A DNA stretch of 7,865 bases from positions 1 through 7,865 of the forward strand of contig JAADFV010000084.1 of NCBI GenBank assembly GCA_013152695.1. Direction: 5' to 3'. Below are positions 329 through 7,865 of this stretch, in pieces; positions within the stretch are counted from its first letter, which is position 1, and the number at the start of each line of letters is the position of its first letter. The notes beneath the pieces were generated by a model. It saw only the letters and a program-made list of their open reading frames with translations, was not told the DNA's origin and searched no databases. A program made the position numbers and the translations under genes. This stretch comes from Chloroflexota bacterium (GTDB taxonomy: Bacteria > Chloroflexota > Anaerolineae > J102).

Positions 329-402
329 AAATAGTTTTCATTCAGACACAAATGGGGAAACAAGAAACGAGCATTTGTGTCTTCTCTATTTGGATTTACC
401 TC

Positions 403-406
403 GGAG
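403..406 (+). promoter_or_regulatory. Ribosome binding site deciding the dehydrogenase start
   Basis: GGAG lies 8 nt before the ATG at 415. The in-frame ATG at 352 has no Shine-Dalgarno sequence and would add 21 residues that do not look like the family's N-terminus. The site therefore supports 415 as the start. Confidence 0.7.
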
Positions 407-414
407 TTTCGTTG

Positions 415-1386
415 ATGCGAGCGCTTTTTTTACAACATGGACAGCTTTTTTTACGTACCGATTATCCTCAGCCCCAACCTCAAGGGGACGAAGCCCTGCT
501 CCGGGTACGCATGGCCGGTGTTTGCGGCACAGATCTGGCTTTACTGAAGGGGTACAAAGGGGGGGTATCGTTGGTGTTGGGGCACGAGTATGTGGCTGAG
601 GTTATAGCAGCCCCTGGCCACGAAGAATGGGTAGGCCGTCGTGTGGTGGGGGAGATCAATACAGCTTGCGGGCAGTGTGAGCACTGTAAACGGGGGTTGA
701 TCACGCACTGCCTCCGGCGCCGGGTGTTAGGGATCATGAATTGGGATGGCGCTTTTGCCGAATATATGGTCAGTCCTATTGCCAACCTCCATCCTGTCCC
801 CGCCAACATATCGGACGAACAAGCAGTTTTTACCGAACCCCTGGCTGCTGCCTATGCCGCCCTGCGTGACATGCCATCTGATGCCGGCGAGCGCATTGTT
901 ATCTTCGGTGATGGCAAACTAGGACAGTTGATCGCCCGTGTTTTTCATGTCGAAGGCTATGATCCTCTGCTTGTGGGGCGTCACGAAGCCAAATTGGCTT
1001 TGGCTGCTGCGGTAAACATCCGCACCCTCAAAGTGCAGTCCGTGCGTGAGGTTACACAACTACCTGAATTCGATGTAGCCGTCGACGCTACGGGCAATCC
1101 CCAAGCCATTTCTGATATCCTCGCCTGTCTACGTCCCCGTGGCACCCTCATTCTCAAGACGACTACCGAACAGCCTTCGGATTTAGATTTGGCGGAAGTC
1201 GTTGTCAATGAATTACGCATCATTGGTTCGCGCTGTGGGCCTTTTCCGCCGGCATTGGCGGCCTTGGAAACTGGTCGGATCGATCCCAGGCCCTTGATCA
1301 GCGCTCGTTACCCTCTCACCCAGGGAGTACAGGCCTTACAGCGCGCCAGTCAACGAGATAGCCTGAAGGTCCTCGTCATCCCTTGA
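415..1386 (+). CDS. Zinc-dependent medium-chain alcohol dehydrogenase-like oxidoreductase
   Basis: A 323-residue cytoplasmic oxidoreductase of the medium-chain dehydrogenase/reductase superfamily, expected to oxidise an alcohol or polyol with NAD(P). Catalytic zinc ligands are visible: C37 in GVCGTD, H57-E58 in GHEY, and probably E141 in TEPLAA. The structural zinc lobe is complete, with C85, C88, C91 and C99. The Rossmann dinucleotide loop is GDGKLG at 165-170. A later conserved block, IGSRCGPFPPAL, and the C-terminal LKVLVIP match what I recall of a subgroup of uncharacterised zinc MDR proteins common in Chloroflexota. At 323 residues it is slightly shorter than classical ADHs, as that subgroup is. 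The start at 415 is chosen because GGAG lies 8 nt upstream and the family begins with an M-[KR]-A-L-type strand. The substrate cannot be told from sequence: threonine, sorbitol or sugar-alcohol dehydrogenases are all relatives. Nothing ties it to the copper ATPase upstream. Confidence 0.92.
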   Translation: MRALFLQHGQLFLRTDYPQPQPQGDEALLRVRMAGVCGTDLALLKGYKGGVSLVLGHEYVAEVIAAPGHEEWVGRRVVGEINTACGQCEHCKRGLITHCLRRRVLGIMNWDGAFAEYMVSPIANLHPVPANISDEQAVFTEPLAAAYAALRDMPSDAGERIVIFGDGKLGQLIARVFHVEGYDPLLVGRHEAKLALAAAVNIRTLKVQSVREVTQLPEFDVAVDATGNPQAISDILACLRPRGTLILKTTTEQPSDLDLAEVVVNELRIIGSRCGPFPPALAALETGRIDPRPLISARYPLTQGVQALQRASQRDSLKVLVIP

Positions 1387-1518: not shown

Positions 1519-1540
1519 GTGGAGCAGTCAATCATTTTTC

Positions 1541-1545
1541 AGGAG
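1541..1545 (+). promoter_or_regulatory. Ribosome binding site deciding the secreted protein start
   Basis: AGGAG lies 9 nt before the ATG at 1555. The in-frame ATG at 1519 lies upstream of this site, inside the end of the leader hairpin, and would put a 12-residue polar extension before the signal peptide. The site therefore fixes the start at 1555. Confidence 0.85.
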
Positions 1546-1554
1546 AATGGAAAC

Positions 1555-3894
1555 ATGCGAAATCGCACACTCAAATTGAGCTTGGCAGCTCTTATGCTGC
1601 TGGTGGCGGTATGGGCGTTGATTGCGGTACTGCCTGGTCAAGCCAGCGTCGCCGAAAGTATTCCCGACGATGAAGTTGCTTTCATCAACAGTAGCGGCAA
1701 TGTTCAAATTGTCGATCCCTCCCCGGTTACAGGCACACCCTTCAACTGGACCTCCTCCTCCGGGGGCTGGACCGATATGGCCGTCTTAGATTCCAATGGG
1801 GATGGTGTTGATGAAATCATCGCTATCGGCGGCAATCGTGCTCAAATCCTCGCGCCTTATGTACCTGGTGGCACGGCTCCCTCTTTTTCCAAAACAATCG
1901 CTGGCGCCTATCAGTTCAACTGGGTGGCCACCGGTGATATTGTCCCCGGCGACCAAGGCCGAGATGAAATTTTACTGCAACATACTGATGTGCTGGATGG
2001 CCAGACCGCCTATCGCGTGTTGATCTACGACGGTAATGCCGATGGAACACAGTGGACCGAGGTTTATAACGCTCTCTTTGGTATTCCCTGGCTCCGTATC
2101 GAAATGGGCGATGTTGATGGTCTCGAAGGTGATGAGGTTGTGATGGCGCGCGTCGGTCCCCAGGACAACCGCGACAAGCGTCTGAAGATCATGAAATACG
2201 TCTCCGGTACCAGTTTTGCTACCCTTTTTGAACAGGTCTACAATTTCCCTTGGGTGGACATGGCCATTGGCAATACCCACGACAATAATGGCACCCTCGA
2301 AGAAATCGTGATCAATCGTGATGGGGTTGCCAAAGGCGCCGGCTCGGTACCTTCTTTCCTCGTTTTTCAATACCACGCCAATAGTCTTTCCGACGCTCCC
2401 AATTCCCAGGCATTTTACTATCCCCCTTGGAGCGACATTGCTACCGGCGATGTCAACGCCAGCGGTGACGACGAAGTCTTTATGGTGCGTGACCCGGCAG
2501 GAACACCCAGCGGCGTCAGTCTTCTCGGCCGCAACTGGGGCACCGATGCTTTCCCCAGCGCCTGGACTAGCCCTGGCATCCAATTGGGCAATAATTATCA
2601 GGAAGTCGAGTTAGGCGATGTTGATGGTGATGGCAAGGATGAATTGCTTGTCGCCCAGCCCAGTAGCTATCGCATTTACTGGGACCCCGGCACCACCATT
2701 AGCAGCTTCGATGATTATCCCACCGCTTTACGTGATCCCGTTTCGATCAAACTGGGCAATTTCGATGGCGAAGGTGTCAGCACCGAACCGCAAAAACTCG
2801 CGGTCAGCGTGACATCTCTTCAGTTCGAGATGACCCGTGGTGAAGCCAATCCCGCTCCCGTGACATTCCAGGTTACCAATGCCGGCGGTGGTGGCGCCAT
2901 TGCTTACAACGTCACCCGTCAGATCGACGGCAATTGGCTGGATGTCACACCCTACGACGGCAGCACCCCCGGCACAGAGACGGTGAGCATCAATGCCTCG
3001 AATCTTGCCGCCGGAACCTATGATGGCACCATTACCGTCACTGCTGTCAATGACACGGTTCTCGATAGTCCCCAAATCATCCAGGTGCGCCTGATTGTCA
3101 ATCCCACCGGACCCATGCTAGACGTGGATCCCAGCAGTTTGGTTTACAGCATGCACTTTGGTGGCGTCATCCCCAATCCCGTCGATCTTACGATTCGCAA
3201 TACGGGCGATGGTGGTGCCCAGGCTTACGACATCAGCGTCACTTACCAGGAAGGTAGTGATTGGCTGCTGGTCGAGCCCATCCATGGCTCTACCGACGGC
3301 ACTGCTACCGTAACCTTGCTGCCGCGTAATCTGGCGCCGGGAACCTACCATGCCACCATCCGTATCGATGCCGGTGCTATCGAAGCAAGCCCCTTCGACG
3401 TGCCAGTGACCCTCACCATCGAAGCGACAGGCATGGTCGTGACCCCCACCGAGCTCTTCTTCCTGGCATTTTCCGGCAAACCCACGCCGGTCGCTTCTGT
3501 TCAGATCGATCAGGCTGTAGAAGGCTCCGGTGCCATTACCTGGCGCGCCTACGCCGTCGAAGCAGGTGACTGGTGGAGCCAGGATGTGCAAGCGCTTCTG
3601 CAGCAAGGTGATTACACCATGCAAAAGCACGGTGACCAACTCAGTTTTGCCGGCGCCGATGGCGCTGAACTGGTTGTCGATACCTTGCCTTGGGTTTTGC
3701 TCACACCTGACCGCGGCATTACCCCCCGCACCATGCAAGTCAGTCTCGATATGGCCAATGCCCCCATTGGCGAAAGCCGTGTAACGATCCTGGTCGATGG
3801 TGGTCCCGGAACCCCCAACCGCTTCCAGGGTGTCGATATGCGTGTGCTGGTCAGTGAGGGCGGCGTGTGGCTACCCATCGTCGTCAACGAATAA
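1555..3894 (+). CDS. Secreted protein with FG-GAP/VCBS propeller, three BACON/Ig-like domains and LPIV tail
   Basis: A 779-residue exported protein. Residues 1-33 form a Sec signal peptide: basic MRNRTLK, a hydrophobic core, and likely cleavage after ASVA. Seven acidic FG-GAP/VCBS-like repeats follow, with motifs starting near residues 79, 127, 185, 239, 298, 354 and 401, consistent with a seven-bladed beta-propeller. Full calcium-loop motifs (DxNxDGxDE or DxDxDGxDE) occur at 79-87 and 355-363; the others are degenerate. Three BACON/Ig-like domains come next, at about 415-517, 521-623 and 627-770. Each has a W-[LV]-x-[VL]-[TE]-P strand (W461, W570, W713), and the third carries an extra ~40 residues before it. 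The protein ends in VWLPIVVNE, like the tails I recall on many secreted Chloroflexota proteins. There is no C-terminal membrane helix or LPXTG sortase signal, and no catalytic domain is seen. An adhesion or surface-binding role is plausible, not shown. Its own promoter and terminator make it monocistronic. Confidence 0.88.
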   Translation: MRNRTLKLSLAALMLLVAVWALIAVLPGQASVAESIPDDEVAFINSSGNVQIVDPSPVTGTPFNWTSSSGGWTDMAVLDSNGDGVDEIIAIGGNRAQILAPYVPGGTAPSFSKTIAGAYQFNWVATGDIVPGDQGRDEILLQHTDVLDGQTAYRVLIYDGNADGTQWTEVYNALFGIPWLRIEMGDVDGLEGDEVVMARVGPQDNRDKRLKIMKYVSGTSFATLFEQVYNFPWVDMAIGNTHDNNGTLEEIVINRDGVAKGAGSVPSFLVFQYHANSLSDAPNSQAFYYPPWSDIATGDVNASGDDEVFMVRDPAGTPSGVSLLGRNWGTDAFPSAWTSPGIQLGNNYQEVELGDVDGDGKDELLVAQPSSYRIYWDPGTTISSFDDYPTALRDPVSIKLGNFDGEGVSTEPQKLAVSVTSLQFEMTRGEANPAPVTFQVTNAGGGGAIAYNVTRQIDGNWLDVTPYDGSTPGTETVSINASNLAAGTYDGTITVTAVNDTVLDSPQIIQVRLIVNPTGPMLDVDPSSLVYSMHFGGVIPNPVDLTIRNTGDGGAQAYDISVTYQEGSDWLLVEPIHGSTDGTATVTLLPRNLAPGTYHATIRIDAGAIEASPFDVPVTLTIEATGMVVTPTELFFLAFSGKPTPVASVQIDQAVEGSGAITWRAYAVEAGDWWSQDVQALLQQGDYTMQKHGDQLSFAGADGAELVVDTLPWVLLTPDRGITPRTMQVSLDMANAPIGESRVTILVDGGPGTPNRFQGVDMRVLVSEGGVWLPIVVNE

Positions 3895-3927
3895 GTGATC
3901 GCTTCCTAAGTTTCTTCTCTTAGTAGC

Positions 3928-3961
3928 AAACAGCGCCTCGTTCTCGGGGCGCTGTTTTTTT
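3928..3961 (+). terminator. Intrinsic terminator after the secreted protein gene
   Basis: The stem CAGCGCC (3931-3937) pairs with GGCGCTG (3948-3954) and can be extended by AAA/TTT at its base and a T-G and a C-G pair at the top. A run of seven Ts follows at once (3955-3961). The stem starts 34 nt after the stop codon. GC-rich stem, small loop and T-tract make a textbook rho-independent terminator, separating this gene from the glycosyltransferase gene. Confidence 0.9.
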
Positions 3962-4030
3962 GTCCACAGGAATGAGAGGTTCACACTCCGCGATGACACC
4001 AGGCTTGAGACGATAGACCGGCAAACTAAA

Positions 4031-4059
4031 TTGCAGGAATGATTTTCATTCGTTATACT
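4031..4059 (+). promoter_or_regulatory. Candidate promoter upstream of the glycosyltransferase fusion (first)
   Basis: TTGCAG (4031-4036) and TATACT (4054-4059) are separated by 17 bp. The -10 matches the sigma-70 consensus at five of six bases; the -35 matches at three of six. Transcription would start near 4066 and leave a leader of about 150 nt. This is a consensus match only. Confidence 0.35.
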
Positions 4060-4093
4060 GTGGGCGTGTGCACATACCATTGCTGTGTCTGGC

Positions 4094-4121
4094 TTGACTC
4101 AGATTTCTCCCTTTTTATTTC
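4094..4121 (+). promoter_or_regulatory. Candidate promoter upstream of the glycosyltransferase fusion (second)
   Basis: TTGACT (4094-4099) matches the -35 consensus at five of six bases. With a 16-bp spacer the -10 would be TATTTC (4116-4121), which matches at only three. It is an alternative to the candidate at 4031-4059 and is weaker in its -10 element. Confidence 0.25.
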
Positions 4122-4216
4122 ATTGCCTTATCGCCTGTGAGGCATGCACGTCCCTTTGATTGATGCTTGCTGCTCACAGATTACTCTGACTTTCTCCGTT
4201 TTCTCGTCAAACGCTT

Positions 4217-7200
4217 ATGACTCGTCTGCTATACCTCATCATTGCCTTGATACTTGCCCTGGTGGCACAGCACTGGCTGACCGAGGGGGGCATTCCTCGT
4301 GATGCCCTGATCTTTTTTGTGTTGGGAGGCGGACTTTTCGCATGGGCAGCTGAGGCTCCACCGTCCTGGCCTGCCTTGCCCGGCCGTCGTCGCTGGCAAC
4401 GCTGGGGCCTGGCGCTGGCCGTGGCCGCGGTTGTGGTAGTTTTGGCTGTGGCCTTCACGCGTTTTTGGTCGGGACAGTACGGCGGTTGGGGGTTGTGGTT
4501 ATGGTTGCTGGCCGTGGTGGCCTACATGGTGGGAACCTGGATAGAAGAACCTGTTGAATCAGCCGCAACTGAGCCCGACAAAATCGGGAACTCATCTCTG
4601 CCTTCCTATCTAAATCCGCGCCTCGTTCTCATTTTACTCCTGGCCATCCTCCTCATCGCTACAGCGGTACGTTTTTATGCCCTCGATACGTATCCCAACG
4701 GCTGCCAATCGGATGAGTGTAACAACGGTCTGGATGCTCTGAAATGGTTGTCGGGTGCTCCCTACATGCCCTATGCCGAGACGAACGAGGGTCAGGCGAC
4801 CTTGTTCACCTACGTCATCGCGCTGTTCATCAAGCTATTTGGTCAGAGCGTGACCAGTATGCGCATGGTCTCAGCCTCGGTGGGGGTGCTCACGGTGCTG
4901 GCATTCTATGCCCTCGCCCGTGAACTCTACAACCGGCCTATTGCCTTGCTCACGGCCGCCTTACTCGCCGCCGATCGCTGGCATCTTACCTTTAGCCGTA
5001 TTGTTTACGAGCTGATTATGATGCCCCTGGTGCTCTCATTGCAGATGTGGTTCCTGATCAAGGCCCTGAAGACGGGGCGGCGGCGTTGGTGGGCTCTGTC
5101 GGGGTTGATGTTGGCTTTGGGAATGAACACCTACACCGCCTATCGTGTCGTACCCTTTCTTACAGGCTTATATTTTCTCTATTGGTTGATTGCCCATCGT
5201 CAACGCATTCGCCAGGATTTTGAGGGGATGCTCACCTTCGCCGGCGCCGCTCTTGTCGGTGTGGCGCCCTTGGGTGTGTATATCATCCGCAATTGGAATG
5301 TATTTATCTCGCGTATCAACCATATTTCTATTTTTCGGGATGTCGAGGCAGCAGGTTCATACGCGCCTTTATGGTCGAATCTAGAAAAGACTCTGTTCAT
5401 GTTCAATTGGAAGGGTGACAATGCTGCCCTGAACAATTTGCCCGGCGCCCCTTTGTTACAAAGTGTGGTGGCGGCACTCTTGATACTGGCTGTTTTTTGG
5501 GCTGTGCGCTGGCTATGGAAAGAATTGCCGTTTTTGTATGTCACCTGGTTCTTGGCGATTGGCAGTCTGGCCGTACTATCGGTGGCGCACGAAGCACCCA
5601 CTGCCCGTCGTCCCATCGGTTTAGTTCCGGTGATTTATCTCTTGGTGGCGGCGGTGTTTGACCAGTTTTGGCGGGCATGGATACGCGCCTGGGGGCAAAA
5701 ACGCTGGCGTCCCCTCGCCGTGGGATTGACCGTAATCGTGCTTTATGTGATGGGATCGAATATCCACACTTATTTCCGTGTCCAGGCCGTGGATCCCTCA
5801 GTGTGGGGGGCTTACAGTCCGAACGAGTCAGCCGTGGGTGAATATCTGGCCACGGTGCCGGAATCGGTCCACATTTACATGACTCCCCAATACACGCATC
5901 ATTCCGCCGTTAAATTTATCGGCGGCCCTCACAAAATTACCGTGCTCAACCTGGCCCAACACATTCCCTTGCGTGAGGACCCCGGCGCTGATGTCGAGTT
6001 CATTCTCGAGCCGGTGGATGAACGGCTAGTGCCTCTCTTGCAACAACTGTATCCAGGCGGCACCTACAATGCCCACCGCGATCGCTATGGCCGCACCCTG
6101 TTCCTCAGTTATCATGTGCCCCGCGCTTTGTATGATGCCGCACGGGGTTTACAGGCGGTTTACATTGCCGGAACCGATCCGTCGCAGCCACCGGCACAAC
6201 GGGGGAAACAGGATTCGCTGCAAGTCGATTTCGCCACATCATCCCCCTTGCCGCCGCCCTTTGTCGCCCGCTTCCAGGGAGCACTGCTGGCGCCCAAATA
6301 CGGTGCTTACACCTTCGAAGTGGATGTGCGCGGCGGTGAAGCCGCCCTCTATCTTGATGAATCGGAAGTGCTGCGCGTTCGAGATGGCCGCGAGAGTCTG
6401 GAACGAACGCTGGCGGGAGGATTTCAGGGCTTGAAGGTGGTCGTTTGGGCGGATACAGCTACCGCCACTTTGAGCGTACGCTGGGCTACACCCGACAACC
6501 CCCAACTCCACCCCATCGACGAGGGCGCCCTCTACAATTTGCCCGGTGCCTCTAACGGTCTGGTGGGTTATTACTACCATACGCCTGACTGGAGTGGCAC
6601 GCCCAACTTGATTCAGCGAGACCTCTTCATTCTACCCAACAACATTTTACGCGAACCCTTCTCCATCCGCTGGGTAGGAAAAATAGCCGCCCCAGTCAGC
6701 GGTACCTATCTCTTCGCCACACGTTCCGATGATGGTTCGCTGGTGTACATCGATGACCAGTTGGTGGTCGACAACAGCGGTTCGCATGGGGCTCAGGACC
6801 GGCAGGGAACGATTGAGCTCAGCGAAGGGTTCCATGATATTCAGGTGTTGTACAATGAGCTGGGAGGGTCACGCGAGATGCAGTTGTGGTGGCAACCTCC
6901 CGGACGTAATCGCAGTATCATCCCCAGCATCTACCTTTATCCTGTCGAAGATGAGTTACCGTCAGACCTGGTTTTACCGCCCTTACCCAGCAATCAACCC
7001 CCTGAACCGGTTGTCTCCCAACCCGGCGGTGGTATCCAGCCCCAACCCGAGCCTGTTGCCCCCGCCCCTCCTGCTGCTTCCGCCCTGGGCGATTTCCCCA
7101 ATGTGCAGTTGGATGTGCTGTGGACGTATGGCACTTGCGGTTCGGGCAAGAAGGAGCTGCAAAAGCCCATGGGTGTCGCTGTTGATGGCAATGGTGATGT

Positions 7201-7865
7201 TTATATCGCCGACATGGCTAATCAGCGTCTGGTACATCTTGATGCTACAGGTAAGCGGGTTGGGTCCTGGGGTGAGGCTGGGGAAGGTCCCGGTCAATTT
7301 ACCGAGGTCTTCGATCTGGTCGTGACCCCATCTGGCGATATTGCCGTGCTCGACGCCGTCAATCAGGTGATTTCAGTATGGTTGGCAGAGGGTGATTTTG
7401 CCCGCCAATTCGGGGCGGATCTGGCCACTTACCGTCCTCGCGGCCTGGGCATCACGCCTGCTGGCGAATATCTCATCGCCGATACGGGCGGGGTACGGGT
7501 GCTTCTCGTAGGTCCAGATGGCCAGCGTTTGCAGCAGTTCGGTGGCCCCGACGCCGAACTTGGGCCCGGCCAGCCTACTGATGCCGCCTACGGGCCGGGG
7601 GATATCATTTATGTGGTCGAACCGATTTCCGGCGCTCTCTGGCGCGTCGATGCTGTTTCCGGTCAGATGCAGCGTTATCCCTCACCCGAGGCCAACACCA
7701 TCGAATCACCGCATCTTGCCGTAAGCAGCGACGGTCGCATCTTTGTGACAGACCCCGAAGGCGGCCGGGTTTTGGTTTACAGCGCTGATATGCAGCCTTT
7801 GGCACAGTTTGGGGGTAAAGGAACCCAAGCCGGGCTCTTCAGCCGACCCGTGGGCATTGCCCTGA
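4217..7865 (+). CDS. GT-C (GT39/PMT-like) membrane glycosyltransferase fused to PA14 domains and NHL propeller (partial, 3' end off window)
   Basis: One frame stays open for 1216 codons, from ATG 4217 to the window end. Residues 1-110 hold four predicted membrane helices, then a polar linker to about 135. A GT-C core follows (about 136-515): a first helix ending in VRFYALDTYP, an outer loop with the acidic pair D166-E167 (SDE), expected catalytic base of PMT/ArnT-type enzymes, then HLTFSR (256-261) and many further helices. Such enzymes move sugars from polyprenyl-phosphate donors to lipid, glycan or protein on the outer membrane face. A soluble region (about 520-640) leads to two PA14-type domains: 644-758, degenerate, and 781-895, with SDDGSLVYIDDQLV intact. 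Linker 909-961 is Pro-rich. NHL repeats begin near 981, 1028, 1072, 1120, 1162 and 1208; the last is cut. The start is the first possible ATG after the stop at 4187-4189, with no clear ribosome binding site. Acceptor unknown. Confidence 0.88.
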   Translation, partial: MTRLLYLIIALILALVAQHWLTEGGIPRDALIFFVLGGGLFAWAAEAPPSWPALPGRRRWQRWGLALAVAAVVVVLAVAFTRFWSGQYGGWGLWLWLLAVVAYMVGTWIEEPVESAATEPDKIGNSSLPSYLNPRLVLILLLAILLIATAVRFYALDTYPNGCQSDECNNGLDALKWLSGAPYMPYAETNEGQATLFTYVIALFIKLFGQSVTSMRMVSASVGVLTVLAFYALARELYNRPIALLTAALLAADRWHLTFSRIVYELIMMPLVLSLQMWFLIKALKTGRRRWWALSGLMLALGMNTYTAYRVVPFLTGLYFLYWLIAHRQRIRQDFEGMLTFAGAALVGVAPLGVYIIRNWNVFISRINHISIFRDVEAAGSYAPLWSNLEKTLFMFNWKGDNAALNNLPGAPLLQSVVAALLILAVFWAVRWLWKELPFLYVTWFLAIGSLAVLSVAHEAPTARRPIGLVPVIYLLVAAVFDQFWRAWIRAWGQKRWRPLAVGLTVIVLYVMGSNIHTYFRVQAVDPSVWGAYSPNESAVGEYLATVPESVHIYMTPQYTHHSAVKFIGGPHKITVLNLAQHIPLREDPGADVEFILEPVDERLVPLLQQLYPGGTYNAHRDRYGRTLFLSYHVPRALYDAARGLQAVYIAGTDPSQPPAQRGKQDSLQVDFATSSPLPPPFVARFQGALLAPKYGAYTFEVDVRGGEAALYLDESEVLRVRDGRESLERTLAGGFQGLKVVVWADTATATLSVRWATPDNPQLHPIDEGALYNLPGASNGLVGYYYHTPDWSGTPNLIQRDLFILPNNILREPFSIRWVGKIAAPVSGTYLFATRSDDGSLVYIDDQLVVDNSGSHGAQDRQGTIELSEGFHDIQVLYNELGGSREMQLWWQPPGRNRSIIPSIYLYPVEDELPSDLVLPPLPSNQPPEPVVSQPGGGIQPQPEPVAPAPPAASALGDFPNVQLDVLWTYGTCGSGKKELQKPMGVAVDGNGDVYIADMANQRLVHLDATGKRVGSWGEAGEGPGQFTEVFDLVVTPSGDIAVLDAVNQVISVWLAEGDFARQFGADLATYRPRGLGITPAGEYLIADTGGVRVLLVGPDGQRLQQFGGPDAELGPGQPTDAAYGPGDIIYVVEPISGALWRVDAVSGQMQRYPSPEANTIESPHLAVSSDGRIFVTDPEGGRVLVYSADMQPLAQFGGKGTQAGLFSRPVGIAL

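Follow-up and report, generated by a model that had tools for sequence, protein, structure and literature searches.

Several described enzymes share parts of their design with the protein considered here, which is encoded at the end of a stretch of 7,865 nucleotides (the window, taken at its full length) from a Chloroflexota bacterium (assembly GCA_013152695.1, contig JAADFV010000084.1). ArnT and Pmt (PF13231/PF02366) are like it in having a GT-C fold and two adjacent acidic residues in the first outer loop, and ArnT also in having a small soluble part past the last helix (alignment to residue 638), whereas four extra N-terminal helices are present only in the window protein and identity in structure alignments is 14%. 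Mycobacterial EmbB is described as a GT-C enzyme with two extra N-terminal helices and with carbohydrate-binding modules (CBM) on the same chain, which may feed the acceptor (PMC7341804), and AftD, with YfhO as a possible further case, is named in a review as a GT-C enzyme that likewise bears modules (PMC8035078). In B4GALNT3 and B4GALNT4, a PA14 domain is joined to a glycosyltransferase whose activity needs it, the PA14 domain of B4GALNT3 being reported as essential (PMC11254600). The window protein carries a GT-C core, two PA14 domains and an NHL propeller on a single chain. To our knowledge, ArnT and Pmt are without PA14 or NHL domains, the modules of EmbB are other β-sandwich CBM (one of them N-terminal) with no propeller, and B4GALNT3/4 are mammalian enzymes with a different catalytic domain and no NHL propeller. 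An earlier annotation made from the letters of the window (the sequence-only reading) held that a small soluble domain is normally the last part of a GT-C enzyme, a generalization not supported as it stands in view of EmbB, for which two carbohydrate-binding modules are described (PMC7341804).

That this one-chain fusion is real and conserved is confirmed. The chain begins with four extra membrane helices, followed by the GT-C core and a small soluble domain; next come the two PA14 domains (PA14a and PA14b), and a proline-rich linker then leads to the NHL propeller, which has six blades. A homologue search, which admitted only proteins of 0.55–1.75 times the query length (a separate propeller of ~270 residues is thus outside its scope), found at least 178 matches at E ≤ 1e-3, of which 120 were listed. 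With segment profiles built from 39 of the listed proteins, all five profiled segments were found on one chain in 112 of the 120, and the homologue P0002 is 89% identical across 100% of the query, so that the single uninterrupted polypeptide proposed from the stop-free frame stands. The homologue in L025, the closest relative among the loci described below (best segment 90% identical), has 1240 residues, from which the window copy is judged to be ~24 C-terminal residues short. The proposed domain order is supported by Pfam matches above their cut-offs in the order PMT_2, PA14, NHL (PF13231, 68.8 bits vs 26.1; PF07691, 83.8 bits vs 24, in two stretches, the printed limits being those of the second copy; PF01436, 47.8 bits vs 20) and by the AlphaFold2 fold. 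PF02366 was absent from the matches of the window protein at E up to 1, and an identity as ScyF (NF035926) was rejected (76.6 bits vs a cut-off of 350). The first match of the whole model in Foldseek is the PA14 protein 6qe7, and the GT part was folded alone because the best 50 rows for the full model were all propeller or PA14 chains; the model of the GT part shows a GT-C fold, with alignments mainly spanning residues 127–638. In the full model, there are two strand-rich regions at the expected PA14 positions and a propeller over window residues 961–1216. The N-terminal helices and six NHL repeats of the sequence-only reading are therefore present, with the amendments that four of the helices are extra to the GT-C core and that the sixth blade is incomplete, severed by the contig end.

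Two peptide patterns, run against 84,980 species genomes, matched at 34 loci, some of them partial, and every one of the 34 titles refers to Chloroflexota or to a taxon inside it (Caldilineae, Caldilineales, Anaerolineae, Litorilinea, Anaerolinea and Anaerolineales), in agreement with the phylum suggested at the outset. Some sources label the homologues glycosyltransferase family 39.

We read this protein, with a probability of about 60%, as a GT-C glycosyltransferase, extracytoplasmic and lectin-guided, that works at the cell surface of Chloroflexota. Its architecture, fold, conservation and gene linkage are computed, and we infer its activity, donor, acceptor, calcium binding, membrane side and partner. 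The membrane core, judging from its fold and its D-E pair, would take a sugar from a polyprenyl-phosphate carrier at the outer membrane face, and the C-terminal arm, as expected from the GT-C fold, would lie outside the membrane. There, PA14b would grip the acceptor glycan through a predicted calcium-dependent sugar site, PA14a, in which this site is absent, would act as a spacer or structural wall, and the propeller, which a disulfide probably closes and which a flexible linker joins to the rest of the arm, would dock a partner, most likely a protein. This last role is the weakest step of the mechanism. The extracytoplasmic acceptor-recognition arm suggested by the sequence-only reading is thus kept here as a proposal. 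In many relatives, the gene is part of, or close to, an Agl23/DUF2298 cluster. Archaeal Agl23 is presented as a putative hexose-phosphate-dolichol flippase, and translocation of lipid-linked glycans in liposomes is reported to have required purified Rft1 or Agl23 (PMC11182771); a GT-C enzyme beside it would suit an extracellular step in which the flipped sugars are transferred. It is because of the precedents of Agl23, EmbB and B4GALNT3 that a lectin-guided extracytoplasmic transferase is favoured.

Conservation was measured in an alignment of 69 rows (the window protein and 68 long proteins chosen by hand from the 120 listed), to which all row counts below refer, as the number of positions at which one residue occupies at least 95%. 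In the GT core, 91 of 386 positions are so conserved, against 3 of 117 in the region of the extra helices (residues 18–134), where alignments to PDB entries have mostly not yet begun (they start near residue 127–140), and 14 of 120 in the soluble domain. One criterion given for GT-C enzymes is a DxD/DD-type acidic motif located in the first outer loop (PMC6801728), and the window protein fits it through D166-E167, which follows the first core helix in the putative outer loop. Each of these residues is found in 69/69 rows, and the pair is predicted, as expected for such a motif, to be catalytic. Two cysteines flank it: C163 and C168 are both present in 49 rows and both absent in 14, with the first alone in six, a pattern that may reflect a redox or structural role.

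The sequence-only reading expected both PA14 domains to bind carbohydrate. For PA14a this is not supported, no D-D motif being found in any of the 69 rows (7 of 134 positions conserved), whereas PA14b, with 35 of 127 positions conserved, is under at least as much constraint as the membrane core and retains D838-D839 in every row. In MhPA14, Asp136 and Asp137 form a D-cis-D calcium site that binds glucose, and docking led to a proposed fucose contact for the stretch around residue 154 (PMC6650083). We infer from the molecule name and numbering that 6m8m is the entry of that paper, the text of which does not give the code. The pair is known in PA14b by alignment, the cis bond and the metal being features of MhPA14, and in the loop aligned with the second stretch N853, H857 and G858 are each found in 69/69 rows. 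PA14b is thus a plausible glycan-binding candidate by its D-D motif, with the difference that MhPA14 and MpPA14 are domains of giant RTX adhesins, not enzymes. The same conservation would also suit a PA14b that forms part of the catalytic site, as is reported of B4GALNT3, rather than a separate acceptor-capturing arm. Against this stand the GT-C paralogues of L025, L002, L003 and L004, which have one PA14, and distant proteins (L053 4527-6356 and L055 13376-15382), which have a GT core and zero PA14. Since the core is kept with one or no PA14, these domains are modular; moreover, B4GALNT3 is not a GT-C enzyme. A catalytic PA14b appears unlikely to us.

The genomic setting brings in Agl23. In L025, the gene order is DUF2298, a 588-residue protein, Agl23 with NHL, GT-C with PA14, the fusion, a response regulator and a histidine kinase; L002 and L004 have the same order from DUF2298 through the fusion, and L003 from Agl23 on. 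Among the 20 loci with at least 3.5 kilobases (kb) upstream, a GT-C/PA14 relative lies upstream in eight (L002, L003, L004, L005, L014, L025, L027 and L032), four of which also have Agl23 with NHL upstream. Ten genomes, six picked from the loci (G001–G006) and four carriers from a phylum sample, each have two matches to DUF2298 along with a match to Agl23 that exceeds the cut-off; Agl23 lies on the same contig, less than 12 kb from the fusion, in five (G001, G002, G012, G044 and G095), the Agl23 gene of G002 being split over two contigs, with the piece adjoining the fusion gene falling below the cut-off when taken alone. In the phylum sample itself, a near-full-length one-frame match was found in at least five of 101 genomes (G001, the centre, with G012, G044, G071 and G095), a lower bound because at most six candidates were scored per genome, whereas DUF2298 was found at E ≤ 1e-20 in 65 of the 101; the fusion is therefore an accessory part. 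The next gene in L011 and L024 encodes an LPG_synthase_TM protein, followed in L024 by a UDP-sugar dehydrogenase; of the 20 proteins covered by that scan, most of the remaining neighbours have metabolic functions, and L033 adds a CBM96 protein and a sulfotransferase. An appendix table lists DUF2298 adjoining a PMT2/PA14 protein (PMC8756737), whereas PMC8993221, consulted on Agl23, yielded nothing; both the DUF2298 and Agl23 families also match the control genomes of Haloferax volcanii and Methanosarcina acetivorans. Proximity to Agl23/DUF2298 suggests a surface-glycosylation system. A further proposal, that two DUF2298 proteins, the ~590-residue protein, the Agl23-NHL translocator and at least one PA14/NHL GT-C enzyme form a complex, in which related propellers would couple flipping to calcium-dependent lectin-guided transfer, is tentative and rather doubtful.

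The cluster of DUF2298 proteins, a ~590-residue protein and Agl23-NHL is in itself conserved in Chloroflexota (L025 2-6852, L052 7689-19337 and L053 6485-18286). Its Agl23-type member in L025 (3538-6852, 1104 residues) has its own C-terminal NHL propeller, so that a propeller is here fused to a membrane protein of glycosylation for a second time.

Could the membrane part of the fusion itself be an Agl23-like translocator of lipid-linked sugars, its arms binding the flipped glycan or a partner enzyme? There is a weak match to TIGR03663 (34.9 bits), the Agl23-type propellers of related clusters (five compared) are 32–36% identical to the L025 fusion propeller, and the liposome experiments (PMC11182771) provide a precedent. 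However, 34.9 bits is far under the cut-off of 126.25, so that membership of the family was rejected, whereas PMT_2 exceeds its own; in 10/10 genomes, the Agl23 match over the cut-off sits in another frame than the fusion gene; and the invariant acidic and arginine residues would rather resemble a transferase active site. The Agl23 proteins with C-terminal NHL, neighbours of the fusion in L002, L003, L004 and L025, are like it in being membrane glycosylation proteins with a related propeller, but they are a separate family: no PA14 was found in L025 Agl23, and no cysteine pair in the five propellers compared. We regard translocation by the fusion as quite improbable.

The distal part of the arm is of uneven constraint. 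Proline makes up 27% of a 63-residue stretch at the linker. Of the 59 positions of the linker one is conserved, and the linker is largely of low confidence (predicted local distance difference test below 50 at model residues 910–937, i.e. window residues 927–954). In the propeller, 31 of 252 positions are conserved, and R1075, Q1119, D1122 and H1166 are without exception in the aligned rows. The five Agl23 propellers have R1075 in common with the fusion and differ at the other three, and the two kinds of propeller therefore probably bind different things. Among 67 rows lettered at both columns, Cys974 and a C-terminal cysteine occur together in 60, neither occurs in seven and there is no mixed case, which makes a disulfide likely between the first and last strand, closing the propeller. 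The four invariant residues, a Foldseek match to virginiamycin B lyase (2z2n, TMt 0.56) and a weak SGL match might point to a propeller that is itself an enzyme of the SGL/virginiamycin-lyase type, and thus to a bifunctional transferase-lyase. This is very unlikely: the top matches are the binding propellers of TRIM71, TRIM2 and Thin, the SGL score is 16.1 against a cut-off of 26.3, and there is one histidine among the four invariant positions, whereas in the lyases several histidines bind metal or take part in catalysis. Some entries of the TRIM71/TRIM2 propellers were solved with RNA; these proteins are parts of E3 ligases and cytoplasmic.

Exceptions to the complete architecture number eight among the 120 listed homologues. 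P0083 and P0114 are without the GT part, P0038 and P0113, which are labelled partial at source, are without NHL, the tails of P0049, P0095 and P0112 are read as frame-shifted, and P0045 terminates in the linker. Among the loci, a stop in the linker of L013 is read as an assembly artefact because the bases at the contig end repeat upstream sequence in reverse, and breaks occur elsewhere in L032 (within PA14a) and L029 (at several points). Proteins with GT-C and two PA14 but a proline-rich tail instead of NHL (L030 9776-12736 and L031 1363-4332) are interpreted as relatives rather than as halves of a split gene; the gene that follows in L031 encodes a GT-C/PA14/PA14/NHL protein, and the L030 sequence stops 126 bases past the gene. 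The two flaws that the sequence-only reading had allowed for, a sequencing error removing a stop or frameshift and homologues consistently split at the linker, are not borne out, the former in view of P0002 and the 112 intact chains, the latter with P0045 as the one unresolved case in the listed homologues and the loci. A fusion created artificially out of separate genes by sequencing or assembly, for which early stops such as those of P0045 and L013 might be invoked, is therefore already refuted by the homologues with all five segments, L029 and L032 being broken at other places than the linker.

Several observations nevertheless weigh against a lectin-guided extracytoplasmic transferase. The arm is placed outside because of the GT-C fold, and a simple hydropathy count disagrees, giving 14 segments, an even number that taken alone would put the arm inside; the loop of residues 110–135, placed inside, is acidic (2 K/R vs 5 D/E), and for placement of the arm over the active site the overall predicted template modelling score of the full model is 0.68. 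The position matching Asp181, the third side-chain calcium ligand, varies (E in 28 rows, D in 10 and Q in 31), and PA14 domains without sugar binding also exist. The seven rows without the cysteine pair may perhaps reflect one loss in one clade. As for gene linkage, G003 has Agl23 far from the fusion, and four genomes (G004, G005, G006 and G071) have it on a different contig; no GT-C/PA14/NHL relative was found upstream in 12 of the 20 loci with at least 3.5 kb, nor in the window, whose 4.2 kb upstream encode a zinc alcohol dehydrogenase and an FG-GAP protein but nothing for glycosylation; and a hairpin separates the fusion gene from its upstream neighbour.

Table. Features of the fusion gene and of the upstream part of the window.
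Feature	Position	Strand	Remarks
Fusion open reading frame	4217..7864	+	ATG at 4217, stop-free to contig end, 1216 residues
Four extra N-terminal transmembrane helices	4217..4540	+	residues 1-108 (about 2-108), poorly conserved
GT-C membrane core	4595..5776	+	residues about 127-520
C163-Q-S-D166-E167-C168	4703..4720	+	after first core helix; D-E pair, two flanking cysteines
Small alpha/beta soluble domain	5777..6136	+	residues 521-640, after last membrane helix
PA14a	6149..6550	+	residues 645-778, no D-D motif
PA14b	6551..6931	+	residues 779-905, highest conservation by the measure used
D838-D839	6728..6733	+	aligned with residues 136-137 of chain 6m8m, numbering of MhPA14 D-cis-D pair
PA14b loop N853-S-G-S-H857-G858	6773..6790	+	aligned with 6m8m stretch around residue 154
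Proline-rich linker	6932..7108	+	residues 906-964, variable
NHL six-bladed propeller	7109..7864	+	residues 965-1216, last blade cut by contig end
Cys974	7136..7138	+	in relatives paired with C-terminal Cys beyond window
Zinc-binding alcohol dehydrogenase-like gene	352-1386	+	PF08240, PF00107
791-residue protein	1519-3894	+	FG-GAP, BACON and CARDB matches; C-terminus VWLPIVVNE
Terminator-like hairpin	3928..3957	+	between FG-GAP gene and fusion gene; 13 pairs, 8 G-C, T run

In the upstream part of the window, the FG-GAP protein is probably secreted, and its LPxV-like C-terminal motif gave no evidence of a general signal (pattern matched by 2 of 229 open reading frames of at least 200 residues in the window and L001–L034). 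Two overlapping hairpins of the terminator-like kind were found in 3800-4300, against 0.4 expected; because of the tabulated one and of a single weak promoter-like site at 4005-4032, separate transcription of the fusion gene is predicted to be likely. No RNA family reached the gathering score in the window.

Literature searches found, among the papers listed and judged by titles and abstract openings, none on a PA14-PA14-NHL GT-C architecture; in public records the homologues go by names such as PA14 domain-containing protein. Each part is already known, as is the principle of the fusion (EmbB being a GT-C enzyme with sugar-binding modules), and it is the combination on one chain that appears new. 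If the reading as a lectin-guided transferase is true, it would mean that a phylum of which few members have been cultured has a recognisable family of extracytoplasmic glycosyltransferases that guide themselves, and would offer a compact test of whether lectin arms determine acceptor choice in GT-C enzymes. It would also point to the DUF2298/Agl23 cluster as a glycosylation system common to Chloroflexota and archaea.

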